48,475 nt of DNA from positions 1-48,475 of the forward strand of contig CAMVNG010000007.1 of assembly GCA_947168815.1 (NCBI GenBank). The letters are read 5' to 3'. This DNA is from an uncultured bacterium. GTDB lineage: Bacteria > Patescibacteriota > Gracilibacteria > Absconditabacterales > Absconditicoccaceae. The position numbers and the translations under genes were made by a program. The notes beneath the pieces were generated by a model. It did not search any database, was not told the origin of the DNA, and worked only from the letters and a program-made list of their open reading frames with translations. Positions 3,563 through 39,114 of the stretch are shown here, piece by piece; positions within the stretch are counted from its first letter, which is position 1, and each line of letters opens with the position of its first letter.

Positions 3563-5266
3563 ATGACAAAAAGCAAAAAGAATAGTTGATCTAATTTAGA
3601 ATATGATTTTCTAAATAAAAAAATTATTACCACAAAAAAAGTAAAAGAAGAGAATACAAACACACAGAAGAAATGAATTATTTATGCAAGAGTATCAACT
3701 GAAGAACAAAGAGATAAATGAAATGGTATCAATTGACAGATAATTGATTGTGAAAATCGAGCAAAGTATAACAATACAGAAATAGTAAAAATATTTAAAG
3801 ATGAAGCAATCTCATGAACAAACTTAAATAGGAAAGAATTTGTTGAAGCTTTGGAATATGTGGAAGAGGTAAATAAATATAAACACGAAATTGATTTTTT
3901 CATTTGTTCTAGTACTTCAAGATTTTCCAGAAATAAAGATTTATGAAAAAATATGGAATTAATTTGAAGGCTAAATAATGTATGAGTTCAGCTTGTTGCT
4001 GTTTGAAATTGATGAATTCAAGAATTAGAGAGTGAAACATGATATCTACAATTTGGTATGCAATCGATAATGGACGCTTTAGAGGCAATGAGATGAGGAA
4101 CGAGAGTAAGATACTGAATTAAATGAAAATTATCTGAGTGATATCGGCCATTTTCATGAGTTCCAGCATGATACAAAAGAATTGTACAGAGAATTGGTTG
4201 AAGAGAATTAAAATTACTAGTTCCTGATGAAATTATGTTTCCGATTTTAAAAGAATGATTAGAGCAATTTGCATTGTGAAAGCTTACAACAAAAATGGAG
4301 TTGTTTGAGTTCTTAGAAGAAAGATGATTTAGATCAAATAGCAAAGTTAATAAAACCGGTAAATTCTACATTTGAGATATAGATAAGTTGCTTACAATCG
4401 AAAAGCTAATCTTTTACGTTTGAAAGATTTATAGTCCTAAATATTTAGATGAACCTGTTGAATGAAAGCATCAGCCTCTGATAGACTATGACATCTTCGA
4501 TAAATTAATGAGAAAACTTCACAACAAATGAGTTGATTATAAGAAAAGAAAATACGATACTAATTCTGAAGAATACCCACTTACAAGAATATTACTTTGT
4601 CCTGAATGTCATAAATGAATGACTAAATGGAAATCAAAATCACACACATGAGATTATCATCATTACTATTGATGCAATACAAAATGATGTATATCATACA
4701 GGATTTCGTTACCAAGAGAAACTGTACATGAAGCAATAAAAAATAGGCTTAATGAAATTGCTCTAAGCAGTGATTTAAGACCTTATTTTGATGAAATTTT
4801 TAATGATGAAATTAAAGCAAGACAATGAGATGTTAAGAAAATTAATGATACTAAAAAATTAGAGATTCAAGAGTGTGAAAAAGAAATGAGAAAAATAGAG
4901 AAATTATTAGATAAAGTTACGAATGAAGAATTATTTGAAAAGAAGCAAAATCAATGGGCAGAGTTAAATGAAAAAAGAATTCAATTAGAATATTCTATGG
5001 AAGATACGAATTTTGACAATTCAGAATTAATGAAAGCCTATAATGATGCAAAAGTTGCCTTATTTAATCCTGGTTTGTTATGGGAGATTTGAGATGCCGA
5101 GATGAAGCAGTTATTAATTAGGGTTTGTTTTTGAGGTAAAATTTACTATTCGAAAAAACAGGGATGTCAAACCCCTGAAATTTCCAGTATCTACCTATAT
5201 TTTAAAGGGCTAAAAGACCCTAAATTATCCGTACCTGGAGGTGCGGAGAATCGAACTCCGGTCTAA
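3563..5266 (+). CDS. Large serine recombinase (site-specific integrase)
   Basis: A 567-residue serine recombinase. The N-terminal resolvase domain begins at about residue 38 with IIYARVSTEEQ, where Ser45 is the expected nucleophile. DEAISGTNLNR and the catalytic-Arg motif SSTSRFSRN follow. A recombinase domain occupies roughly residues 185-330. The zinc-ribbon shows CPEC ... C-N-T-K-G-C at about 350-376, then a Glu/Lys-rich coiled coil at about 430-490. This order is that of large serine integrases. Many glycines are TGA. The ORF has no stop of its own before the tmRNA: its last residues (PGGAENRTPV) are antisense to the tmRNA T-arm and acceptor, overlapping about 31 bases. This implies that the attachment site is at or near the ssrA 3' end, or that the natural C-terminus was altered on integration. 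Confidence 0.9.
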
Positions 5267-5612
5267 AAGGCACACTCACCACGTTCTACCATTATAGTCT
5301 ATCTTTAACCATATTTTTTAACTTATTTTACCTGGAAACAGAAGAAGGTAGACAAACTCGACTCTATAATTTTGATAAAACAAGCTTTGGGTTTCCTGCT
5401 AAAGTCCGCCTTATTCCTAGCAGGAGTCAGAAATAAGGATAGTTACAGGCTCGAGTTACGACTATGCGTAAGCTTTAACGAGTTCTGCTCTCTTTAAGAG
5501 AGATTTTCATGCGTTAGCATTTTTTTCTTGATCGGTTTTTAACTCAGTCGATCATTGAGTAATGGCTCGCAATGGGCATGGATTCCTCTCATCAAATCCA
5601 AAAGTCACCCCC
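5236..5612 (-). ncRNA. ssrA: tmRNA (ssrA)
   Basis: Transfer-messenger RNA, which rescues stalled ribosomes and tags their products. The 5' end GGGGGTG pairs with CACCTCC at the 3' end, and the T-arm reads GGAGTTCGATTCTCC. After the discriminator A at 5236 the DNA reads GGT, so CCA is not encoded. The tag frame starts at GCT (5518) and ends at TAG (5462-5464). It reads ANAGKSLLKRAELVKAYA if the fourth codon, TGA, is glycine. The 3' end overlaps the last codons of the recombinase on the opposite strand. Confidence 0.93.
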
Positions 5613-16682: not shown

Positions 16683-19600
16683 ATGAAAATAAAAAGAATT
16701 CTATGAAGTATCGTGCTAGCCTGATATCTAGCTTCAAACCTACTTTCTTATCTATGATATGTAGATCGATGAAGAGCTGAAGCAGCAAGTAATTGAAGTA
16801 CAAATAGACCTATCGTTGCTGTTTTGGTTGATAATGATACCTACAGTCAAATCTGAAATTCAAGTAATTTCTCATGGTATACAAATGACTATCTTCACAG
16901 TAAATATCCTGATAGTCAAGCTATTGTGTTATCACTTGATACTAATGAATATACTGCTCCTGAAATAGTTAAATTGCTAGAGAATCTTTATTTTGAGGGA
17001 ATTGAAAATGAACCTTCTCGTTTAGTTTGAGTCATTCTCGTATGAAAAATACCTTTCCCTGTAGTAAAATATCAAAATTTTGTATTTCCTTCAATCTATC
17101 CTTACGTAGACTTCATAGAACAAAAATATATTCGAGACGAAGAACAAAAATATTTTGTACAAAACAATGAAAATTGAGAAGCTGAGCTTTGGCACGGTGT
17201 TTTAGATTTCTCAGATGCTAGTAAATATGAAGAATTCTTTGAAAAATTAAAAAAATATCAGGATAATCCAGAAAAATTTATAGATAAAAAGATTTGGTAT
17301 GATGACTTTATTGCACTAAATAAAAATTTTCTTGAAGAAATATATCATCTTTATCAAAATAAACTCATCTTTGCTGAAGATTTAATGTATCACCGCTATA
17401 CAAATTTTTTTGTAAATATTCTTCAACAAGAACAAGAAGATAGTTATTCAGATCTTTTAACAGATTTAGAAACAGCCACACAAATTACTTGAGTACAAAA
17501 TATTCTTTCTTGAACTCAAGAAGCACTTGAAAGTATCTCAGCCGATTGATGAGATACGCCAACTCTTCTTCTTCAAAATAAGATTAATTGATTTTTAAAG
17601 GACTATTACAATGTTCTTAGTACTCCTCTATTAAGAACTATTGATGATAATGTTAAAGCAAGTGATAGATGGGAAGTTAGTGATTCTCATTTTCAAAAGA
17701 TGCAAATAAAAGATCAACTCCTCCTTTGAAATGATGAAACGAATGGTATCATTAAGAGCATCAACGATAAATTAGAAGAATTTGTAGATAAAAAAATTGC
17801 AGATGAAAAATATGCAATGAAAACTACTGTTCCAACTTATTATTCTGAAGAAAAAAAGAGATGGAAGAAAAAATGGCCATTTGGTAGAAAACTTATTCCT
17901 GATAAAAACAGTATATATCAAATGTTTTACTTTGGTCAAAATCCTGAAACGATAACAAATGCCCAGCAATTCAGCATTTATAGATGATCTTATAGAAATC
18001 TTGATAAGTATGTAAAATATTCTTCAATTACTTGAGATGCATTAAATCCTGCACAAACTAGGCAAGATAAAACAGATCTTTCTAAAAAAGGACTTTGATC
18101 TTCATATGACATATTTTCAACACAAATCGAAGCAAATAGAGGATACAACGTTCTTAACATGCAAACTGAATATGAAGAATATAACCAATATAAAATTCAT
18201 GCGAAAAGAAGCAGAGAATGTACTAAATATTGGTTTTGAATAAAATTCTTCTGATGTAAAAGAAAAGAATGGGTAAAGGAATGAAATTGTGATCAAAATG
18301 ATGACTCTTGATGTGAGAACTTCCTACAATATTGAGAAAGAGTTTATTGATGAGGGACTCCTCTTAATCTAAATATGACTAAATATCAAAAACAAATTTA
18401 TGAATTTGATTGACCTTTTCATTACGAAAATGCTGTAAAACCGCTTTATGATATCGCTTGATCAGTAAAAACAAAATCAAATATTAATGATGCTACTAGT
18501 TTTAAAGCATCAAAGACTTTTCTTTCTCCTGTACTTATAAATGATGTATATTGAGAAATTTTAGCAGACAACTGAGAATTAGCTGCTCCATTCCATATTG
18601 GAATCAATAAAGTTCGATTCTTTGGTAATAGCGATTTGAATTTTTCAAAATTTAGATTTACAAAATTCTCTGACGATTTCTTTGAATTAAGAAAGGAAAA
18701 ATCATGAAGAACTGATGAAGAAAGAGTTTATAGATATAAAATTATACCTTCAGTTATAAAACATGATGCGGCACAATCCCTTTTAATTAATGGATATTCT
18801 TGATATAGATATACTTGAGACAAAGAAACTTATATTTATTACACTTCCATTCTTGAAACTCTACAATTAGATCAAGATACATGAGCTACAAAAATTCTTC
18901 AAGATGCTTTTTCAGGATTAAATACTATACTATCTTGACTAGCAACAAAAATTGAGACTACTGACGTACTCTTAAGTTGAGAGATTAAACTTTCTGATTC
19001 TGTTACTCTTTCATGACTTGTTAATTATACAGGAGCTGTAGAATCTTTTGATTTATCTGATCAAACCAATACTAGTTGAGAATATCTTATCAAAGGTCAA
19101 TCATGAGATCAATCAAAGAATTGGGATTTATTTAATGGTGTCTTCCTTGAAAATTATTGAGAAAATGCAATTTCATACATTGAGGGATATCAAAATAGAC
19201 AAATGGATACAAAATCACCAATTGATATCTGGAGTAAATGGTTTAATGAAATTCTTACACAAATGACAACTCTAAGCAATACGCTTAGGGCTATGGAACA
19301 AATAGGTATAAAGTTTTTTGATGATTATAATACTTTTGTTAAAGAACTAGAAGATTCAGAAAAAAAAGTAGATGAAAATATTGAGATTCTAGAAGCTAGG
19401 ATTTTAAGTGGACAACAAGCTATTGAAGAAAACAGCGGAGCAATTGCTAGCTGAAATGAAACTATTCTTGAAAGCAATTGAGAAATTGCGAGACTTAGCT
19501 GAGAAATAGAAAGATTAACACAAGAGATTTCTGATTTAAATACTTTGATTGCATGATATGCAAATGATGAAATCAATAAACAAAACGCATTAGCTGCCGT

Positions 19601-22600
19601 TGAAACGAATAGAACAAATGAATTAAATGTAGTTGAAGAGAAAATAAGAACTTCTCAATGAATTATTGCGCAAAAAAATAGTATTATTACTGCTTATGAA
19701 AACAAAATTAATTATTATAATACGGAAATTGGAAGAAGAAGAGATTTATATAACCAGAACATTACTGCTGCAAATAGGACTATCTCAGATCAAAATGCAA
19801 TTATTGCGACGAATAGTTGAGTAATCGAAAGATATACTAATTTAAAAAATTCTATCACTGCTACATGAGCAGAGAAAGCAAGGTTAGAAAGAGAATATGA
19901 TGGCTATATTTCTGAAGCAATGAGTAAAATTAGTGCAGCTAGAAGCGAAATTAGTAGAGCAGAAAGTATTATCGAAGAAAATACAGCGCTCCTTGAATGA
20001 TTACCTGCTGAAGAAGAAAGACTAAATCAAGAAAAAGAGGATTTTATTTCTGCAAATGAAGAAAATTATAATACAGCAAAAACAGAAAAACAGGCTGAAG
20101 AAGTGAAATTGTCTGGCTATGAAGCAGAGAAAACTTCAATCAACAATAACTATAATAATCAGAGGGATACTATCATTTCGAACTATAACAGAAGGAAACA
20201 GGAAAAAGAGGCATATGAAGCACAAGTGAGAGCCAAAGAATCAGCCATTAGAGATGCCAATTCTGGTATAGATGAAGCTAATGCTGATATTGAAGAAGCA
20301 AATGCTACGATAACACAAGCTCAAAATGATATAAAAAAAGCAGAAGAAGAAATTGAATTAGCATCAGGAGCAAAAGCTAAATGGGAAGAAGTAAAATTAA
20401 AAATTGAAGACATTCTAACAACAGTTAATGATCTCAACATGGCAGATGAATGTACTGCTAATCATGGTGTTCTATGAAATATTCTATGAAAAGATGATGA
20501 AGAAATAAATTATTGAACAGAAAGTGATGATCCAGTTAAATGTGATATAGCTGAATGAGAGAACCCAAATTGATGATGAGATTGATGAGAAAGCTGAGAC
20601 GGAAGTACAACAATTAGTGCACTTCTTGATTCTATAGTTGAAGCTAAAAAATCGTTTCAAGAACATTTCAAATCAGATCCTAATAATCCTGAGGAACATA
20701 TTCCTTGAATGAATATGCTTACCGTCGATAGACCAATTGATTCTCCTAGATATGTAACATTTCAATGAGTATGAGAAAATGTTATAAAACTTATCTATCC
20801 AAATCTTTTTAAAGTTGAGGTTTATAAATCTACTTGAAGCAATATTTTATTGAAAGAAACAAATCCAAATCCAAGCAAAGATGAGATCTATCAAGCACTT
20901 AGATCATATTTTCAAAATAAAGTCTCTGAATATAACCAAATACTTAGTAATGAAAAGAATCATGCAAAATCAATGGATAAATACTATACATTCTTAAGAG
21001 ACAAAATGGATCCATTGGCTACTCCAACGTTAAATCAAAGCGTTCGTCCATATAAACCTTTTACTTATCAGGAAATGATAAAAGTAATTTGATGAGAAGA
21101 AATGCTTTATACTCTTTCTGAACTCCTCTACTATCAAAATGTTTCTAATAGAATGAGAGAGTATCTTGACGATATTGGAGATGATATAGATGAGACAAGA
21201 AGTACCTTTGATATTAATAAGAAAATTTGATATATTGTAAAAAATTATCTTACTGAGGAAAATGATAAATTCTACAAATGAGAATTGAATGCAGGAGATA
21301 AAAAGAGTTATGCTGGACTAATTATTCCTTGATATAGTACATGATGATATGAAGTTTGATATATCAACTCAAATGGTAATGATAATGTAACTCCATGATT
21401 TGATGACACAGAAAATAGGATTAAAGAAGCCTCAACAGGATGAGATGATTGAGATGGATGAGTTTCTGGGTCTCTTTTTGCAGAAGATCCATCTGATACT
21501 GAGGCTACTCAAGAGTTTAAAAAGGAATGTTGATTTGATATTAATCAAGCACTTCTTCTTTATAGTTTTGAAAGCTGAAAATTTGAATGGTTTGAATGAC
21601 TTACATGTTGGCTTAAACAAGTTGCTAAAAAACCATTAACTGTTGAAATCTATTTCCCAACAGCGCCTACTCTTTCTAGCATTACGGAACCTATTGAAGA
21701 AAGTCTAACTGACTTTAAAGATAATATGCAACAATTCTGAAATGAAATGGAAGAATTTTTAGCTCCAGCTTGATCAACAATCGAGACATATAAAAATATG
21801 CCTGTCACTAAGAATATGGATGAAAAGACAAAACAAGCCTTCAACTATACACAAGTTTCATGGAATGATAAAAAAGTTAGCGTTCTCGATTGATCTTGAA
21901 GTATTAATTTCCTTTCTCTTCAAGATGTTTGAAATATAACTGTAAAAATTCAAACAACTTGAGATAACTGTCTAATTGTGAAAGATACAAATACTTGTAA
22001 TTGAACAGAAGCAGTGAAAACATGAAATCCATATAAATCATGATTTTCAATCGATTACACTCTTGCCAAAGAGACAGTCTGAAATATTATAGCATCTGTT
22101 TCTATTTGTACCTCAGCTAGTAGTTGTTGAGTAAAAACAATGTCACTAAGTGTTGTGCCTTGACCAATAGATAAATTAACGGTAACTCCACAATGAGGTA
22201 ACAAAATTCTTGCTTGAGCATATACTCTTCTTTCTCTAAAAGCTACTGATGCTAAAGATAATGCAATTAATAGAACTTTAGAAAATTATATAATTAAAGT
22301 AGATAAATGAAAACTTATAAATTGAGGTGTTGAAGATACCAAACAAGAAGTAAATGATTTTCAAAATACAACACTCCTTTATAGAGCAGAACCTGGGACA
22401 GCATGAACTGTTGAATTCACAGTTGAAGACGAAAAATGAAATGTGCTTACTAGAGAATATGCAACTATATTAAATTGAGAATTAGCTCTTGAATATAATT
22501 GAACTAAAGTTTCTAGTATGAAATATACTATTTCTAATGAAAAATATTTTAATGATGATGGTTCAATAAATACAAAAAAAGTAATTCCTATTAAGGTTTC

Positions 22601-25600
22601 ACTCAAAAATGGATGATCTATAGTTCCAATTACGACAAATGCTGTACTTTGAAGTGAGAAATGACTTATTTCTCCTATGATACTCCAAAAGACAAAAAGA
22701 AATGATGGAACAGAAAAATTATCATTAAGACAAGCTAATTCGATTAATATTCTCTCATGAACATTAACAATATATGTTGTTCCTTGATATAAAGCATGAG
22801 ATGATAACCTTATTGTTTCTATTCCTTGAATGGCTGATAAAAAAATTGCTTTCAAACTTTTACCTTGAGAAATAAGAGATATTGGAATTACTCTTGAAAA
22901 AGACACTATTAATATATGAGAATCTATTAGTGGTACAATAAATCTTGTTGATGCACGAGGAAATAAAATTGATAAAGCAACGAATATTTCTGTCGATGTA
23001 ACAACAGAGAATATGATTGATCCTAATGGAAAGATGTGGAAAGCCGCAGTATCACCTACTCGTTATCCTCAAGTATATTCTTGAGAACAAAGTATCAGTT
23101 TAAAAACAACAGAGAACGATGCAGGTCTACAAAGACTAACTGTTAAAACAAAAAATAAGGACTGAGATGAAATCACTACCACAAAATCTTTTATGGTTAG
23201 AAAATTCTTCCTTGATTGAGCAATAGAATCATGACTTAATATTCTTTATCTAAACTTATTCTGAAGTGATTGGTGAAATCAGTGGTGATATGGTTCTGAT
23301 AATAAAAAATTCTCAGAGCACATTATTGAATCATCTAAAAAGACACTTGCTGTAACAACACAACTCGTTGATCCAAGTAAGATAAAAGAAACAAGTATTG
23401 TATTTTGAAAATCATGACATATTCTAAATAATGATAATTTATCGGTTACCGCTCACCTAAATAATGCGAAATTACAACTCGATATTGATAAGGTTGGTTC
23501 ATTTGAAATAAAAGATCCACTAAAAAATATTAAAGCAATTAAAAATGATGTTGGTAATGAATGGCTGCTTGAACTTGCACAATGAGAAGAAAAATCATTA
23601 CTACTCTATGATATCAGCGAAGATTTCATTTACAACAATGGTATTTTCTATACTCAAAGAGGTTTAGAATTTGCTAATATGAGAACATCTGTTAATTTTA
23701 ACCTTACAACAAATAATATTTGAAATTATCCTGTATGGGAAGCAACAAGTAATGGTCAAATTCTTGGTTTTGTATTAATTACAAATCTCGATTACTCAAC
23801 AATAACATGAGATGCTGAAAATATAGATTATGAACTTTGAGATTTATATGAAAATTGAGGAACAACAGATACAATTAAAGCACTTTATTCATCATTAAAT
23901 ACTCTTGCAGATAGTTATCAAGGATATACGTCAATACAAGACAGTGCAGATTTTAAAAATTATGTTGGATTTAGAGGAGACTTTAAAAACATTACTCTCT
24001 TTGCAGAATGAGAAAGTGTTTGAGAAGCAACGGTGCCTTATTGATCTGAATTCCTTATCAACATTTGAGATCCTTTATTAAAGAATAGAGATGAAGTTGC
24101 ATCTGTAAGGGGGCTTGGACAAGTAAAATTCTCTAATCCATGAAAGACTATTTCTAAAGTTATTGACATTGACTATAACAATGATTGATTAAGAGATTTT
24201 ATTATTATTTATAAAGATTGAAGTATTGTTCTTCAAAAACAATATGAAAACAAAAAATATCAGGATTTAGGAACTCTTATGGTAAGTGCCGAACAAATTA
24301 AAGAGGTTTATGTTTGAGATGTTGATTGAAATAAATATGAAGATATTATTGTCAGAAATACAAACAATCAACTTAGGGTTTACATAAATGATAATTGAGT
24401 GTTTGATGTTGATTGAAATATTGTCTGTCTCAACACAAATGTTCCTACATGAGAAATTAATGAACATCCAGAAGATCTTTCAGGAGTTCTTCAAATTTTT
24501 GTAGATGATATGGATAATGATTGAAGGACTGATATTGTTACTTTAGATAAAAGATGATATGTAAAAATCTTCTATGGTTACTGATCAAAAAATAGGCATA
24601 GCTATCTTAGTAAAGAAATATATAGTTGCGACGAAAATCGATATGAAAGGAATAAATGACAGACTAAAATTATTAAAAAACTCTGATTGAAACTCGATTC
24701 AAAGGGGGTCGCTGATAGCAGCATTCTTCGTTGGGATAACTTAAAATACCCTAGCGATGAAGACCTCGAAAAGACTGTAATCGATGGTAACATGGAAGCT
24801 GAATGAAGTGAAACTGAGCTTGAAAAATTAGGAATTTCAACCGATCCAAACTTCTTAAAACAACTCGAAGAATGATTTACAGCAAGCGATGATATGGATC
24901 AAAATGCAGTTAAAGCAAAAATGAGTACGATTATTGGGGATGTTGTTAACGTATCTTCAGAAATAGACACTACAGCTCAAGCACAAAAAGTAACTCAAGC
25001 TTGAACACTCTATATAAAAAATCCTTTTGTTGGAAAATATGTTTTCAAAGATACACTCAAAGAAGAAGAACAAGCCTTTATTACTATGTCTAACATTGAG
25101 AATTACAGAAAATTAACAAATACTAAAAAGATTAATAAACCAGAAAAAAAATATGTTGATGTAAATTGATGAGAACTTGAAGAATGAGATATTGTAGAAG
25201 TTACTGTTAGTTCAACAGCTCAAGCTTGATTTATTCCAACCTCATTCTTTGATCAAATTACTGGACCTTGGATGATTGATCGTGATCAAACAACAGGAGC
25301 TCCCAAAGATTTAAAATTTACAAGATGAACTTGAGATATTGTTGCAGGAGCTGAATGATATGATTACTGACTTATCAATATCAAACCAAGTGGAAACTGA
25401 TTTCAGGTCAAATATTCATTAACTTATCATATGGAAAAACCTCTTTATACAATTAGAGTAGAAAGGGAAGATCCATTAATATCTCTTCAATCAGTTAAAA
25501 ATATAGAAAAGGATGATATTAGTATTGTAAATTGGAATGGTCTAAAATATGACTCTAAACATCAAGATATTCTTATTAAAAATCCTTTCACAAATAAAAT

Positions 25601-28600
25601 TAAAATTAATGATGATTTAGATCCTGAAGAACAAGCGTATATTAATATCAATAATATTTGAACATATATTGATCGTCTCGATTCAAAGGAAATATATAGC
25701 ATCAATAAAAAATATATCGATATTAATGGTAACAGTCTTGAAAATGGGGATAAAATTGAGGTTACAGTAAAGGTTTCTATGCCAAAAAGCCATATTCATC
25801 TAAATACTTATTTTGAGAAATTAGAAGGTCCTTGGGTTGAAAAGTGAATTCCATCAAATGTTCAATTTACAAAATGAAAATGAGAGACTAGATCAGGAAT
25901 TTGATGATATAATTTTTATCTTACTAATTTTGAGGAAGAAAAAGTTTGAGAAGAAGAATACATAATCGAGTTCAAATATACTTTAACATATAAAGATGAA
26001 AATTGAACTCCAGATACAAAAAATCTTCCATACATCGTTTTACAACCAACAGATGGATGTGTTAAACAAGAAGAACTACTTAAAAATAGTATGTCTAATA
26101 AAAATAGATCTTATAAATCTGAAATTATTGATTTGCAAGAACTAGCGAAGACTTATGCAGAAGAGGTTCAAAAACCAAATGACGAAGCAAATGAGAATAT
26201 CAACAATCAAGTTAATAATGCTCTGAATTTATGAACAGATTCTCCTCTTCTAAACTTAGTACAAGAAACTTTTTGAACTAAAGATATCTTTGATCAAGCC
26301 TCATGGACAAAGATCATAGAAAACAATTGAATTGACTTCTGAAGCATAGACTTAGATATTACAGAGATGCTTGGTGTTGATGTTCAACAACTTCAAAGGA
26401 ATGTTCAAGATTTAGCAAACAAGTTATGTAACTGATTTACATTCTGAAAGAAAGGTAAAAAATCATGTGAAGGACTTCCTGTTCCATTCAATCAAGCATT
26501 TCTTGCACCTTGAAGTTACCATGTCATGTGATGTTTCCCTGTACCACCACTAACAGCTACTCTAGGTAAGTGACTTCCAATTTTCTTTTGGCCATGAAAT
26601 CTTGGTCCAATTCCTTTCGTTTGATTCCTTCCAATTCCTTATATGCCAACAGGACCTGGAGATAATTTTCTCCGATTAAAGTGAGCATGACCTTTTAGTT
26701 CTTTAATTAGAATATATGCCGCTCCTACACTTACGGCACAATTATGACTTGCCATTTGCGTTGGACCATATAATGCTTGAATTAATATGCCTTCACCTGT
26801 AGCAGATATTGCAGGAAACTGTATCGTTACTGCAATGGCACTTCCTTGTTGAAGTTGATGATCAGGAGATGGAGATGATGATTGAAATGACTGAAATTGA
26901 GCATGAGAAGATGACGTATACGAAAATTGGGTATCTGAATATTGAAAAACAAATACTTGTGTTCCATCAAATAATGAATCACCATTCCAAATGGTGGGTA
27001 ATAATTGAGCTCTCAATACCAGTGAAGGATCAAGTATTGGATGAAGTTCAACAACTTATCTCTGAGGTAATGTAAATATTCAGCAGGATACTTTTGATCT
27101 CTTTGGTGAAGAATATGAACGAATTGATCCAGCAAACGATAGTAGTATTTTTGAAAAATGAAAATGATCATGATTGGAAATTAATTGAGTAAGAATACAA
27201 TGAGTAAGTGATATGAAGAATAAATTACTATGAGGTCTTCAACAAGGTATTCAAAAGATTCTCGTTGACTGGTTAGATAGACAAGTACAATATTGGATTA
27301 ACAATCTCTTCAGATTTGAAATAGAATTCACCTTCCCTGATATTTCCTATCTTTCTGATGAAATAAAAAAGATATCAGCCGATAATGTTTCAGACATCAC
27401 GTCACCAGTAACAGACAAAAATGGGAAAGTCGAAGAAGCAAATAAATGAACAAATGATTGATCCGATCAAAAAACACAAAAAGCTGAGAAAATACAAAGT
27501 AGTAATAAAAAAGCCACACTTACCTGAGTTGTCGAAAGTGTAAAGAAATTTAACATCGTAAGTGATAAAATAAAAGAGCTTGACCTTGCTTGATGAGTAA
27601 ATCCGTTTAAGGAGCTTGAAGAACTCTTTAATCAAACAGATTTAATAAATATTACAACACAGAACATTCCTATTAGAGTTCCATGGATTTATAATGAAGA
27701 TATTGAAGCTTATAAGAACTATCTCTTAACACGGTATGATCAAAATTTGACCATCATTAAATGATGGGATGCTGCTATTGAAGCTGCTATAGCTGACTGT
27801 TCATCTAAAGAAGAAGATGATCAATGAAAAATAAGAAGTGCAGCACATTGTAAAGCATTACAAGATGCAAAAGCAAAGCTCATGAGACTTTCTTCTAAGT
27901 TTGATAAAACATGAGATCAGATTTTTGCTAACGTACAAACCTTAGAAGCGTATAAGAGATTTCCATTTCAGATTTATGAACGGCTTCATGTTGTCGATAA
28001 ATATCTTTGAGATGTCTCTGCTTTAATAACAAACTTCTTCTGATATATTAACTATTGGATGGACGTTAATGCAACAAGATTCACCCAATATGTTGATGCT
28101 ATTATCACAATTGTTGCTATTGTGAAAACATATCAAATCATGATAGATCTCTTTACAAGTCGGTGATCTAAATGCTGAAAATGTACGCAAGATACTTATG
28201 ATCAATACTCTTGTAAACTCAGCTTCCTTTGTATGATTAATATACCAACAATTGCAATTCCTGCTGTTAAGATACCGAGTCTTTATATTGACCTCTCGCA
28301 TCTTAATTTACAAATGAACATTACCCTTCCTCGTTTTACTTTTAAACCAGAAGGTATTGAACTTCCTAGATTACCAACACTTCCAGAACCACCACAATTA
28401 GGAATTAATTTTGATATTGACTTTGATATTCCTGATATTCCTCAACTACCACAGCCACCTGAGCTCCCAGAACTACCATCATTTATTCCTCAGGTCAAAA
28501 TGGAATTACCTGTTCTTCCTCCTGCTCCGGCAATTCCAGAAATTCCAAGCGAAATTACCGCAATTCTTAATCTTGCAAAAACTCTTTCTAAAATCTTCTG

Positions 28601-31358
28601 TATTATTAAATCTTGAATCGGTCTTGTTTCTGAAAGTGCCGTAAAAGCAAGAATTGAACAAATGACTCAAAGATCTTATGAAGTGCCTTGGGTTGATAAT
28701 CTTGACTTAACAGCATACTTTAAGCAAACTCCTCTTCAATGAGTAGACATACAAGTAGACAGTTTTGTAAATCTTCAATTCAATTTTGATGCTTTTTATG
28801 CTGTACTTAAAGGAATAGTTGATGAGATTAATGATTTAACGTATAATGTTTCTCAGGTTGCACAAAATGGAGTTAATTATGTAAATCAAACATCAGCAGA
28901 TTGGACACAAGAGATGAATGATGCAACAAATAAGAGTGTTAATTTTGATTTTAGTGTTTCTAAAGCTGAGACGCCATCTAAACTTAAAAAAGAACTCATT
29001 GACCTTCGTAATACTATGACTGATGCTGAAGATAAGAAGATGATTAATGAAGTTATTGCTTATACTTCAACAGATACAACAGTAAAGAAGAATAGCAAAG
29101 GTTTAAAGAAACTTGAAAAACAAGTAAATGAAATAATAGAATCTGAAAAAGAATCTCTTGAATCGTTATGAAAGAGGATAACTTCAGATTATGATGGATT
29201 CCTCGCTTCTTTAAATACACAGCAAAATGAAGAAGCTCCATTACAACTTTCATTCTCAACAAATCTTCTAGAAAAGAACGAAGCTGCGGAAAAAGCTATT
29301 ATGAAAAATGATGCAAAAGATATCCTTATTCGTACTGAAGAAAAAAATGTTGATGGATATATCAATGCATTAAATAATCATAGTCCAAGTGATCTCAATA
29401 TGACAGAAGAGACTTATAATAATTCATTAAAATATCTTGCTTCTATAAAAGGAACTATTGATAAATACTATAGCATCAAGAGGAATGAATATATTTGAGG
29501 AGAAAATCTCACTGATTCTATGTGAAATACTATTAATAAACCTCTCTATGCTCAAGCTGATAATACAATACCTAGTGCCACTGAAATGGCCACTGAAGAC
29601 TATAGCCAATATGTTAAAGGAGTCTTCATTAAGAGTTGAGATAATCTAATCAATGCCGTAAATTCAGAATACAACTATGAGAAGTTCCATAATTATTATG
29701 AAAAAGATTTAGACAAGGATGGTAAAACAGAACTTATCATGTGGGATGATAATAACTTATTTGTGAAATATTTCGACCGTCAAAAGAATGCTAGTTGAAA
29801 GTCATCAATAACTATTAAACCATCACTTAAAGATAAGAAAAAATATAGTTGATGAGGTCTATTCTGATCTGATGTAAAAATTTATGATGAAAATTCAGAA
29901 GTTAAGAACTTTAAACTTAAATGACAAACTTATGAATCTATTTCATTCTCTCGAGATAACGATCATTATGCGAATACTAGTTGATATCTCATGCGTCTTG
30001 TTGAACATGTAGAATGATTCCGAGAGAAAACAGTTGCAGCTAAGAATACTACTAAATATATCCTCTTGCTTCCTAACGAGATGGAATGAGAATTAAAGGG
30101 ATTACAACTTCAAGTTCAATGAAATACGATTCCACTTTCTAGTGATAAACTTTATGCTATCAAATATTATAATTCAGATGATGATAGCTTACAAGTTACA
30201 CTTTGAGAAGTTCCAAGGAAATGGGAATATGCTCAAATAACTACTGTAAAACTCAATAACCGTGTCTTCCAACAAAATGCTCCATGGTCAAATCAACTGG
30301 TATGAGGTAGACAGGTTGTTTGAGATTGAGCTGCTCCAAAAGCAACTGTAGAACTTCTTAGATCTAAAAAATGAGATGAAATCGTTAGCGAAGGTTTTGA
30401 TCTTGAGTGATTTGTATGAACTTACTATACGCTACAAATCACATGGAATGATTCAACAAAAGTACGTAATACAAAACTTGAAGTCTTTGATGAAAAAACA
30501 AATACTGGAAAAATTCTTAATGAAAAAGATTTTGATAGTTTTGTTTGAATTGTTCGTCTAGAGAACCTTTTCTTTACTTGAGCACAGACAAAACAATATA
30601 ATATTTATGCGGTTGATTCTCAAGGTAATGAGACAGAAGAAACAATAAACTTAGAAATTAATATTCCAGATATTACTATTTCAAATATTGAACGTTCTGA
30701 AGGATATAAAGAATGAATTAAGTGACCTGTATCAATCACTTCTGAACTTGAAACAGATATTGATGAATGAACTGTAAGTTTTGAGAGGAATAGGAATAGT
30801 GTTTCAGAACCTATATCTTCTACTTCTAATTGAGCACAAAAGCAAAATTATGATGTAACAACAAATCAAACTACTGTTGTCGGTCAATATTATGACCTAT
30901 GAGACGAAGTTGGGCTTTATTCTGAAGATAATAACCAGATAGCAACAATTGATGCAGCTAACGGGAAAATTGAACTAAAACCAGAATTCGCATCAATGAC
31001 AGAAACTCGTGTAGATTTCTCTCAATGATATCCAATTGTTAAAATTATGCAGGGATCTAAAGTTCTCTTTGAAATTCTTCTTCAACCACAAAGTTTAATT
31101 AGTAAACAAGTTGAAGAATGATATTCTGTCCTTCAACTTCAAGGTAATAATTATGGTCTCTTCAATTGATGAGAGGTAATTATGAAAAATAAAAGTCCTC
31201 TTCTTTATATTGCACCAGATTGAACGTTATTTACGCAATCTCCACTCCAATGAAATTATACTTATAATGCATGAGATGATACTGTAACATATGATGTTTA
31301 TGAAACACTAGGAGATAAGGTCGCAAGTATTACCTTTAAAGTAAAACCTCTTGAATAA
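16683..31358 (+). CDS. Giant secreted surface protein, about 4,891 aa
   Basis: One uninterrupted code-25 frame of 4,892 codons. A signal peptide occupies about residues 1-36. Residues about 870-1260 form a long coiled coil, flanked by Gly/Asp-rich linkers (about 1290 and 1585). Ig-like or invasin-like segments lie near 1825-1930 and 2060-2130. FG-GAP/VCBS-type repeats with DxDxDG calcium-loop patterns (DIDYNNDGLRDF, DVDGNKYEDI, DMDNDGRTDI) sit at about 2490-2640, with one more at about 4340 (DLDKDGKTEL). Two homologous units cover about 2778-2917 and 2965-3110. A hydrophobic Gly/Pro-rich segment occupies about 3270-3390 and a proline-rich segment (repeated LP-LP-PP) about 3850-3965. No LPxTG motif or C-terminal membrane anchor is seen. 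It is probably an adhesin or contact fibre; the family is not recognised as a whole. Confidence 0.88.
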
Positions 31359-33891: not shown

Positions 33892-36800
33892 ATGAAATTT
33901 CAAACAATTCTCTCATCATCTAGATTTCTAATTTCTTTAACAAGTTTAATATGAGCATTGAGCTGAGTTTGTATGATTTCGGTAAATGCAACATGAATAA
34001 ATTTAAATAATTTTCACGACCTAGATGTTTATATTGTAAATAGTGGTGAAAATATTCATTACACATTGATGGATAGAAATTTATGAGCCTCTGAATATTA
34101 TTGAGAAAGTAATAACGTATGAAATTCTTATGGTGCAAAATACCAATGGGGAAATAACTTCTCATTTTTCATCAATAGTAAAGATTGGACAACAACATCA
34201 TGACAAGTTGATGCAAGTAAATATGGACCATGAAATTATTATAATAAAAATGAATTTGTAAAAGCTCATCCATGGGATTCTTCAAACAATAAAAATCTAC
34301 GATGAGGAGAATGAGATACTTTGAGAGGGAATTGATCTTGAGATTCATTTAATAGGCAAGGACCTTGTCCTGATGGATACTATATTCCTAGTGTATATTC
34401 TCGATGAGAAATATTTCAGCCATTTGGTCATAATGATAATACCGATGAAAATTATCTAAACATAAAATCAATATGACTTGTTCCTAACAACTATCTCCTA
34501 TTACCATTAGCATGAGGAGCGTTTTATGATAAAAAATATTCTATGATTTCAGTATCCAGTGAAGGTTATGACTGAATATACCGAACTTCTTCACCAAATT
34601 CTCGATATACTTGATATGCGTACAATTTCGAAATTGGTTCATATTGAAATTATACAACGAACAGTGAAACAGCTAATGGCCTCTCTGTTCGTTGCGTTAA
34701 AATAGTAGCTAATAATCCAACAATATCAATTGATACTAATTGATGAACACGTGCATTGATTAGCCTTCAAAATGGAAATAAAGTCGTAGCAATTTGAAGT
34801 CCAAAAAAAGAAGGATTTAAGTTTATTTGACGATATACTAATCAGAATTTTATATGAGAAAAAGTAAAATTAAATGATATTCTAAGTAATTGAACAACAC
34901 TTTATGCGAAACGATGAGAATTAACCGTTTCATTTGATACTAATTGAGGAACCATTATTAACGATGTATATATTGAAAAATGATGAATAATAAAGGAACC
35001 TATTCCTATTAAACCATGATATCGCTTTGATGGCCGATTTTTAGATAAAGAGTTTAGTAATAAATTCAATTTTTCAACAACGATTACGAATGATATTACA
35101 CTTTATGCAAAATGGATTTATGAATATGATTATGATGATTTAAATATTTATTTTGTAGATTGAAATTGAAATCTCACGCAACAAACAACAATGGATAGAA
35201 ATCTTGGAGCAAAAGAAATATATAACAAAAAATATAATTCGACAGAAGTTAACTATGAATCATTTTGATACCATTACCAACGATGAAATAATTATTGATT
35301 TAGTGCATGTAACGGACTTAATACTAACTCACATGTATGCTCTGGATTCCCAGGTAACGAAAATACCTATTGAGGTGAAGTACCTATCAAGGAACGGCTT
35401 CCATATATACCGTCAAAATATAGTAACAACATATGGAACACATCCGCACAATGGATGTGAATACTATGAGAATGAAGTGCTCCAATTCATAATTCACAGA
35501 GTAACCTGTGGTGATGATTATGAGATTCATTAACAGGTAATGGTGTATGAACTTCTGAAGATAGACAATGACCTTGTCCAGATGGTTACCATATACCAAG
35601 TATCTTTGAATGGTCAAACCTTACAAAATGATGGGAAAACATTAAATGAACTTGACGTAATATTAATCATGTTAAAGATTTTTCTTATGATTTTCTATTA
35701 CCACCTAATTGATATCGTTGACGAGGTAGCGCATGGGTTTATGATCAATGAGTACAATGAAGATATTGGAATTCATCGTCAAGTAGTTGGCATTTCCGAT
35801 TTAATGTAGATTCCAGACCAAATCAAGAAATTAATAATAAAATTGGTGGATTTCAAGACAATCAAAAACAACAAGCTATTCCATCAGAATGATATGCTGT
35901 CCGTTGTTTTAAAAACGGAATAAATACTGGAAAATTCAACATTGAATCTAATTGATGAAACACCTTTTTAATAACAATTCAATGAAATACTATTAATTCT
36001 TTAACAGACCCAATAAAAAAATGATGTGAGTTTGATTGACGATATATTGATACTAATTATAGTACAAAAATTAAAGAATGAGATAACATTAAAGATTGAG
36101 ATACATTATACGCAAAATGGAATTGAGAAGGATGTGATCCTATCAATACAAAATGGGAAGAAGTAGTTAAAGAAGAATATTGAGAGACTAATTCCAATGT
36201 TTCATGAGTAGTTATCTACAACTGAGTTAAAATGAATACAATTACCGTTTCTTATGGAAATGAAAGCATTACTCTTCTTGATAGAAATCTTGGTGCAACT
36301 AAAGCCTGAACTGGTAAAGATTCTTATTGATACTATTTTCAATGGTGAAATAATCATGGATTTACGGAAAAAGATAATATAACACACACATACAATGATC
36401 ATACTTATAAAGGATATGGTCCTGTAAATCCTCTTGATAGCGATTTGTTTTGATGAACATATTTTGATATATGGGATAACAGTAAACACTTTGATTTTAT
36501 TTGGTGATGAGAAAAGGATAATACATCTAATAATTATAATGCATGAAACGTAAAATTAATAGAGAACCATACATCAAGACAATGACCTTGTCCTGAAGGA
36601 TTTCATATTCCTAGTGCAGGTGAATGGTCAAAGCTTCTAGAATTATGGTGAAAGAATAATGATATTTATAGCTGGAAATCTGGTGAATATAATCTAAAAG
36701 AAACTGGTAATAAAAAGTGAATTTGAAGCAAATTATCTAATGATTTGTTACTTCCACTTGCATGAACTATATCTGTATGAAGTTGGTGAGATGTAAGCAT

Positions 36801-39114
36801 GTCCCATGTTTGAGAGACAGCAAATTTATGGACTTCTTCTGCTCTATGAGTCGAGGATGATACAAGAGAAAATTTATCAAGAACTTTATATGTTCACGAT
36901 AATGAAATAATTCTTGGTATAGACAATCGTTCAGATGCACAGAATATTCGTTGTTTTAAGGATACGAAACTAAAAACAATATTGAATTATTCAGTATTTT
37001 TTGATACGAACTGATGAAAACACATAAACAGCATGACATTTACTCCGTATAGTAATTCGGTAACTATTGGACATCCGATGGAAGAAGCTAATGGTAGATA
37101 TGTTCTTGATTTATACGATATTGAAAAATATCTAGTGCCAATTAGAACTGGATATGAATTTATCGGTTGGTATTCAGATAAGGGATTGACTAAAAAATTT
37201 GATTTTGATACTATTTTAACAGAAAATATCATACTCTATGCTAAACGAAGCAAAAGTATTAGTCACGATACAATCAATTGAATAGACACCATTACTGTTT
37301 ATGATTATTCTTCTGACAAATCTATCACTATAATGGGTAATAATCTCTGAGCCAGCTCCAATCAAGCAAATTGACTTCTATATCAATGGGGTAATAATAA
37401 CTGATTCACTGAAAAACAACTAGAAACAAAGTCAACTACTCCTATAAAATATGAAAATTATGGTCCTCAAAAACCATATAGTAGTAAAAAATATGTAGTT
37501 CCTTATGCAAATAGTAATGATTATTGGGAGAATGATGGTCACTATCCAAATCTTTGGTGAGGACAATGAGATACTAAATCTAATAATTGGGATGATTGAA
37601 ATGATAGATCTCTTAGAAAATGACCTTGTCCTGATTGATTCCATGTACCAAGTAAATGAGAATGGGATGAATTAGTAGATATATGGTCAAAAAATAATGG
37701 AGTTACATGGACAAAGAATGTATATTTAAGGCTAGATGAACCTGCATATAAAAAAATAATAAAGGATTTAAATTTATGGTCCTGATATTATTATAGAACT
37801 TTATGGACCTCTTCACCAGTTAAAAGTGGTCACTCCTACACTTTATGAATAGTTAATGATTATACGGTAGAAACATGGAGTAATCCTAACAGTTTTGTGT
37901 CTCCAATCCGCTGTTTCTTGAACTATTCAATTAAAAACGATAATGAAGGAAATTTATGAGATAATTTAGAAAATTCAAACGATAAGGATAACGAAAATAA
38001 GTCTGTGAAATATACCGTAAAACATCTAACTGAAACCCTTACTTGAGCATATACACTTCTTTCAACCGAAACACCTACAGCTGAAAGCTGATCAAAAGTA
38101 ACACCTCCTGTAAAGAAATTTAAAGGATATAAAAGCCCAAATACAAAGACAATTACTGTAAAGTGAGATTGAACTAGTGTTGTTGAATATAGATATTCAA
38201 GAGAGTTATTCGAAATTACTCTTAATAAATGAGAATGAATACAAACAGTTGCTTGAGGTGGAAGCTATAGATTCTGAACGAAAGTTTCTCTTAGTGCAAC
38301 TCCTGTTCCTGGTTATGAATTTGTTGGCTTTGAAGGAGATCAAACAACTTGAAGTTTTACTATGCCATCAAATAATATTACTATTACTGCAAAAGCTAAA
38401 AAAGGTAATACTAAATATAGTATAAGCTATAATCTAAACAAATGAAAATTAGAACAATGAAAAAACAATCCAACAAGTTATAGCGCTTCAAGTCCCTCTT
38501 TTACAATTAATCCTCCAGTAAGAAATGAATATGTTTTCGCTTGATGGGAAGAAACAGTCAATTGAAAAGTCACATGAATAAAAACTTATGTTTCAATTCC
38601 GCAGTGAAGTACTTGACACAGAAAATATAGCGCAAAATGGGAAAAGGAATGAGAAGTTGAAGAAATGATTTATAACCAACAAGAAGATTTGGAAGGAAAC
38701 TACGTAACAGTTGAAGTAATTGCTTCAGACTGAGATTGAGATTCTGACTCATGAAATTGAAATACAAATTGACCAAGAGAATATGAATGATTCCACCTTG
38801 TTGAAGACTTTTCTAAACAAAACAACATTGATCAATGAGCAATTTGAGAAGTACTAGAATTATGAAGTAATTGACCTGCCACTATTATATATAGATATGC
38901 TAGAAATTCATATACTCTTACTATTGAAAAAGATGCTTGAATCGAATTAGTTCAATGAGCATGAACTTATAAGTATCAAGAACCTGTTTCAATAAAGGTT
39001 AAAGTAAAGGATTGATACCAATTTGCATGATTTGAATGAGAATATAATGTTGCAAATTTTGAGATGCCTGCAAAGAATCTAACTATAAAAGCAATTACCA
39101 CAAAAAGGAAATAA
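33892..39114 (+). CDS. Secreted mosaic protein with four FISUMP domains and InlB-type repeats, 1,740 aa
   Basis: Signal peptide at about 1-37. Four Fibrobacter-type FISUMP domains lie at about 58-270, 432-673, 793-1020 and 1148-1343. Each has (M/L)DRNLGA or MGNNLGA, (Y/F)QWGNN or a variant, GPCP(D/E)G(Y/F)(H/Y)(I/V)PS, LWTSS-type, and RC(F/V)K. Between them are InlB B-type repeats (FDTNGG ... LYAKW) at about 281-343, 344-408, 683-744 and 1033-1118. Divergent InlB/MucBP-like repeats fill about 1375-1740. In the aligned GPCP motif, glycine is GGA in copy 1 and TGA in copies 2-4, direct proof of the code. No membrane anchor at the C-terminus. Probably a surface adhesin; ligand unknown. Confidence 0.9.

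Follow-up and report, generated by a model that had tools for sequence, protein, structure and literature searches.

The window analysed here, a stretch of 48,475 nucleotides from an uncultured bacterium, carries the tmRNA gene (ssrA) of an Absconditabacteria-type bacterium that uses genetic code 25. We are highly confident that this is an ordinary tmRNA, in which the UGA at codon 4 of the tag is read as glycine by tRNA-Gly(UCA) and arose by codon drift. The UGA is expected as an outcome of the known code of the lineage, with no new mechanism, and the stop-to-glycine reassignment extends with it to the message segment of the RNA that rescues ribosomes. The gene has the following features:

5235 to 5612, minus strand: tmRNA gene (ssrA), full-length match to Rfam RF00023
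5462 to 5518, minus strand: tag reading frame, ANAGKSLLKRAELVKAYA, with stop TAG, from the table 25 translation
5516 to 5518, minus strand: resume codon GCT (Ala), aligned to the resume position of the tmRNA model
5507 to 5509, minus strand: in-frame TGA, tag codon 4, very probably read as glycine (table 25 translation; tRNA-Gly(UCA); no RF2)
5488 to 5502, minus strand: candidate small hairpin within the tag frame, CTCTC-TTAAA-GAGAG, from pairing in relatives

The tmRNA was matched by cmscan from 5612 to 5235 with 81.9 bits (RF00023 gathering score, 47; E 2.5e-30), spanning positions 1-374 of the model. In the sequence, the acceptor stem GGGGGUG / CACCUCC provides a G3.U70 pair, the element recognised by alanyl-tRNA synthetase, together with discriminator A; no CCA tail is encoded. 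The alignment also spans the ring-of-pseudoknots region with low posterior values, pseudoknots being outside the models of the tools. Translated with table 25, the tag codons GCT-AAC-GCA-TGA-AAA-TCT-CTC-TTA-AAG-AGA-GCA-GAA-CTC-GTT-AAA-GCT-TAC-GCA-TAG give ANAGKSLLKRAELVKAYA, and both the coordinates and the peptide agree exactly with those proposed in the initial annotation. Tables 25 and 11 differ at a single codon of the frame, the TGA at codon 4. Under code 25 the frame has its Ala start and an in-frame stop, and under table 11 it halts after ANA, as that annotation had also stated. The resume codon lies at the matching site, in an AAAAAT/AAAAGT context, in the relatives of the same family (f1) that were called by ARAGORN. 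Within the tag frame, all five pairs of the hairpin can form in 11 of 11 relatives of the window's group; its inner pair is C-G in five and U-A in six of them, and both sides of this pair are third codon positions. This pattern gives moderate support to the hairpin as a small RNA constraint on the tag codons.

The decoding apparatus was assessed in the genome of the window and in its class, with f1, f14, f18, and f19 taken as the UGA-recoding families. The search of the window's own genome gave one tRNA(UCA), at G000:C1:457234-457307, a 74-base type I tRNA (GCGGATA...TATCCGCT). It carries G1:C72, C2:G71, G3:C70, and U73, which are the glycine identity criteria used in PMC8629427. ARAGORN labels it SeC because the program applies the standard code. 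RF2 was not found in this genome, where the best prfB score was an RF1-level match (3.4e-75) and a single protein with an RF-1 domain is present. Across f1, f14, f18, and f19, nothing scored above the RF1 level for prfB except in G128, an oversized bin of 2.7 Mb that is far larger than its relatives; most genomes in the other families of the class possess prfB. The SmpB gene is located at G000:C9:30386-30823 and covers positions 1-143 of the 144 in the profile (E 5.3e-34), with a score of 117.0 bits that is slightly below the curated cut-off of 119.1. In-frame TGAs number six in SmpB, seven in L2, and three in the RF1 domain. The ORFs of the window contain 637 TGA and 383 GGN codons, so that TGA makes up 62% of the glycine codons, and in the ribosomal-protein region, 94 conserved Gly columns compared over 11 f1 genomes have TGA at about 20% of their codons. 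Collectively, the tRNA(UCA), the lack of RF2, the TGAs within SmpB, RF1, and L2, and the Gly, Ser, and Ala found at this site in relatives lead to the conclusion that the tag UGA very probably encodes glycine, as the initial annotation had read it. The meaning of UGA in Absconditabacteria-type lineages has already been reported (PMC8629427, PMC10746230), and peptide evidence for UGA as glycine exists for a BD1-5/SN-2 population (PMC4032931). Two other tRNAs of the genome, at G000:C10:38532-38602 and G000:C1:121316-121386, have the anticodons CCG and UCG, respectively. PMC8629427 reports that CGA and CGG are read as Trp in Absconditabacteria and takes G as the Trp discriminator, the base at which the UCG tRNA ends. 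Neither CGA nor CGG occurs in any f1 tag.

The tag comparison drew on 37 f1, 40 f14, and 21 f19 tmRNAs, plus 17 from families taken as standard-code. Sequence records were scanned with the pattern GCWAWCGCATSAAAATCTCT, and a separate tag-pattern scan of viral contigs gave no match. TGA occurs in 8 of the 37 f1 tags. It stands at codon 4 (genera g1, g4, and g15), at codon 9 (g15), and at the Ser-equivalent site (G009 and G032), and has therefore entered f1 tags at no fewer than three sites. Within the group nearest the window, G002, G023, G069, and G025 have TGA at codon 4, and G031 and G033 have TCA there; after a 3-nt insertion, the codon is GGA in G005 and GCA in G070, G071, and G067. Codon 9 is TGA in G025 and G033, and Ala or Lys in the others. 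Beyond the TGA, KSLL..RA..LV..AYA is kept in G002 and G025, KSLLARA with an AYC end is found in G023 and G069, and all four run to an in-frame TAG or TAA stop. G031 and G033, with TCA at codon 4, have the same downstream frame as the TGA relatives, and this conservation with and without TGA argues for its translation. Tyr-Cys tag ends (AYC or AYAYC), which are not small hydrophobic, are seen in L031, L035, L161, L163, L164, and L169, all of f1 genus g4.

The initial annotation had proposed comparing the codon after GCA (TGA or GGN) and the -AYA end across relatives. Some relatives do have TGA or GGN and others have TCA or GCA; the -AYA end is retained in G002 and G025 but is AYC in G023 and G069. 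The tag UGA itself, judged from these alignments, is not a conserved feature. A non-glycine codon at this position, which the annotation had named as evidence against its reading, does occur in relatives; it bears on the conservation of UGA and leaves the glycine reading untouched, since Ser and Ala, found there instead, are small residues as well, and every residue exchanging with UGA at codon 4 is small (Gly, Ser, or Ala). The tag body had also been described as basic, unlike the common type. Mean net tag charges of +2.4, +3.7, and +3.4 in f1, f14, and f19 make a basic body ordinary in the class.

Considering that TGA makes up 62% of the glycine codons of the window, its presence in an 18-codon tag is expected: at the window rate of 4.6% of codons, the chance of at least one TGA in 18 codons is about 0.57. 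The f1 tags behave alike: of their 16 Gly codons, 9 are TGA, compared with 54% of those in the flanking ORFs. The TGA in the tag is thus what codon usage predicts, and it is the tmRNA itself that is beyond chance. It had further been proposed that ribosome rescue in this lineage depends on tRNA-Gly(UCA). This holds for completion of the tag, which needs the tRNA, but not for transfer of the stalled ribosome to tmRNA, which can proceed without it because UGA is only codon 4. Nor is the dependence special, since it is common to most genes: SmpB, RF1, and the ribosomal proteins also need tRNA-Gly(UCA), and therefore no particular link to rescue is shown. Searches of the own genome for another RF-1-domain protein, for example ArfB, and for NFACT/RqcH found neither, and tmRNA-SmpB is therefore the only rescue route identified there.

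From these components, the tmRNA would be expressed and act in the usual way. Alanyl-tmRNA and SmpB would enter a stalled ribosome whose mRNA is truncated, and translation would restart at GCT and run along the tag frame to TAG. The UGA at codon 4 would be decoded as glycine by tRNA-Gly(UCA), RF2 being absent, and RF1 would free the tagged protein at TAG, presumably for proteolysis. The UGA would have arisen by ordinary codon drift in a lineage where it is the commonest glycine codon, at a position that seems to accept Gly, Ser, and Ala.

Other explanations of the frame were weighed against this one. A standard-code reading would have UGA end the tag, leaving a three-residue ANA and an untranslated remainder, and predicts no tagged peptide with GKSLLKRAELVKAYA. 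However, the genome possesses tRNA-Gly(UCA), UGA is frequent within the SmpB, RF1, and L2 genes, and the frame beyond the codon is conserved as protein up to a TAG or TAA end, with or without the TGA. The absence of RF2 and this downstream conservation effectively rule out UGA as the stop of the tag, and we consider such a truncation exceedingly improbable. Accidental frames can occur in RNAs, and the tmRNA of the window drew no call from ARAGORN; the gene could then be real, with its resume codon elsewhere and the 18-codon frame accidental. Against this, the resume context and Ala start are common to 37 f1 tags, the frame, AYA-type end, and stop are conserved, and, for the f1 relatives it detects, ARAGORN independently puts the start of the tag at the corresponding resume codon. 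There is only the slightest probability that the frame is fortuitous.

It is also conceivable that the tag UGA is a regulatory sensor, in which scarcity of tRNA-Gly(UCA) makes tagging fail after ANA, so that rescue and the recoding tRNA are linked by selection. The presence of UGA in more than a single f1 tag (8/37) and the lack of an alternative rescue factor in the own genome, with its one RF-1-domain protein and no NFACT/RqcH, would fit such a role, but the codon varies among close relatives (TCA and GCA), its use in f1 tags matches that of the genome (9/16 vs 54%), and SmpB itself needs tRNA-Gly(UCA) six times. A codon that is not conserved and whose usage is simply genomic is unlikely to be regulatory, and we hold the sensor role to be very improbable. 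Codon drift under code 25 accordingly stays the preferred account of the UGA.

The tags of f14 and f19 contrast with those of f1 in that UGA is rare. In f14, TGA represents 2 of 66 tag Gly codons (40 tags; the other 64 are GGN) vs about 65% in flanking ORFs, and in f19 it represents 0 of 19 vs 27%. Ribosomal-protein operons provided a partial test of whether the codon bias of highly expressed genes explains the f14 pattern. This bias reduces the number expected, yet the deficit remains: the 16 f14 genomes with such operons have no TGA among 28 tag Gly codons, where 9.7 were expected. Conserved ribosomal-protein Gly columns of the same genomes, with relatedness kept, served as the null. Columns with zero TGA across the 12 relevant genomes number 2 of 72, which gives an empirical P of about 0.03 for the conserved G-L site; all tag sites jointly give P of about 0.002-0.003 if they are independent. 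The strength of the result depends on the filter, as a looser column filter gives 14/96 for the G-L site (P about 0.15), and the test was made post hoc, after the data had been seen. The UGA deficit in f14 tags is therefore suggestive. RNAalifold predicted no consensus pairs on the f14 tags. A weak helix drawn by hand sets the Gly codon's GG against CC, unvaried in the 21 of 23 sequences that retain it, and RNA pairing of the Gly codon may be the reason why TGA is rare in f14. A tentative and rather doubtful explanation is that f14 tags, and perhaps those of f19, avoid UGA since rescue would stall when tRNA-Gly(UCA) is short, and that Absconditabacteria may have lost this constraint. The contrast, with UGA used freely in f1 tags and rarely in those of f14, offers a way to test whether a recoded codon is kept out of rescue tags. 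Eight f14 tmRNAs (L038, L057, L059, L060, L072, L083, L124, and L125) have GGA (Gly) and not Ala as the resume codon; TGA was found as resume codon in none of the f14 members.

Three other frames of the window were characterised:

3563 to 5266, plus strand: serine recombinase (Resolvase, Zn ribbon; Pfam Resolvase E 1.1e-21)
16683 to 31358, plus strand: 4891-codon open frame, 236 of its codons TGA, matching FG-GAP repeats only
33892 to 39114, plus strand: 1740-codon open frame, 127 of its codons TGA, with Listeria-Bacteroides repeats and a Fib_succ_major domain

The recombinase frame converges on the 3' end of the tmRNA from the opposite strand with a 32-nt overlap and is not part of the tmRNA. 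G002 has a recombinase gene at the same place with 99.5% protein identity, the tmRNA bins being 88-94% identical (DNA). The recombinase could belong to a mobile element that targets ssrA; a search of the window for a further copy of the tmRNA 3' end found none. The product of the 33892-39114 frame is probably a surface protein.

ARAGORN, a gene finder in wide use, misses the tmRNA of the window and detects 26 of the 98 tmRNAs of f1, f14, and f19. The tmRNAs with a TGA in the tag were all missed (0/10), with or without the -gc25 option. Within f1, detection was 0/8 with TGA vs 17/29 without it (Fisher P 0.004, relatedness ignored). When the TGA was presented as GGA, 2 of the 10 were recovered; TGA is thus not the sole cause of the misses, and other divergence matters too. 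Tag collections built with ARAGORN would under-report recoded tags.

In the literature open to searching, which did not extend to the tmRNA Website or to many subscription journals, no description of a tmRNA tag with UGA as glycine was found. The tmRNAs of Hodgkinia and Mycoplasma, discussed in PMC4131195, are similar in that a tmRNA is kept or traced despite a reassigned stop codon; the reassignment there is to tryptophan, and the passages of that paper on the code and UGA mention no recoded codon in a tag. The gene resembles the tmRNAs of RF00023 in its full-length match, G3.U70 pair, Ala resume codon, small hydrophobic tag end, and one stop, and differs in the UGA sense codon of the tag, the lack of an encoded CCA, and the putative hairpin within the tag frame. 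With the code 25 lineages (2013 work cited in PMC8629427), it shares tRNA-Gly(UCA), the absence of RF2, and UGA as the commonest Gly codon of the window, but here it is the message segment of a tmRNA, and not a protein gene, that carries the recoded codon. Codon usage predicts that tmRNA and code 25, each well known, would meet in a gene such as this.
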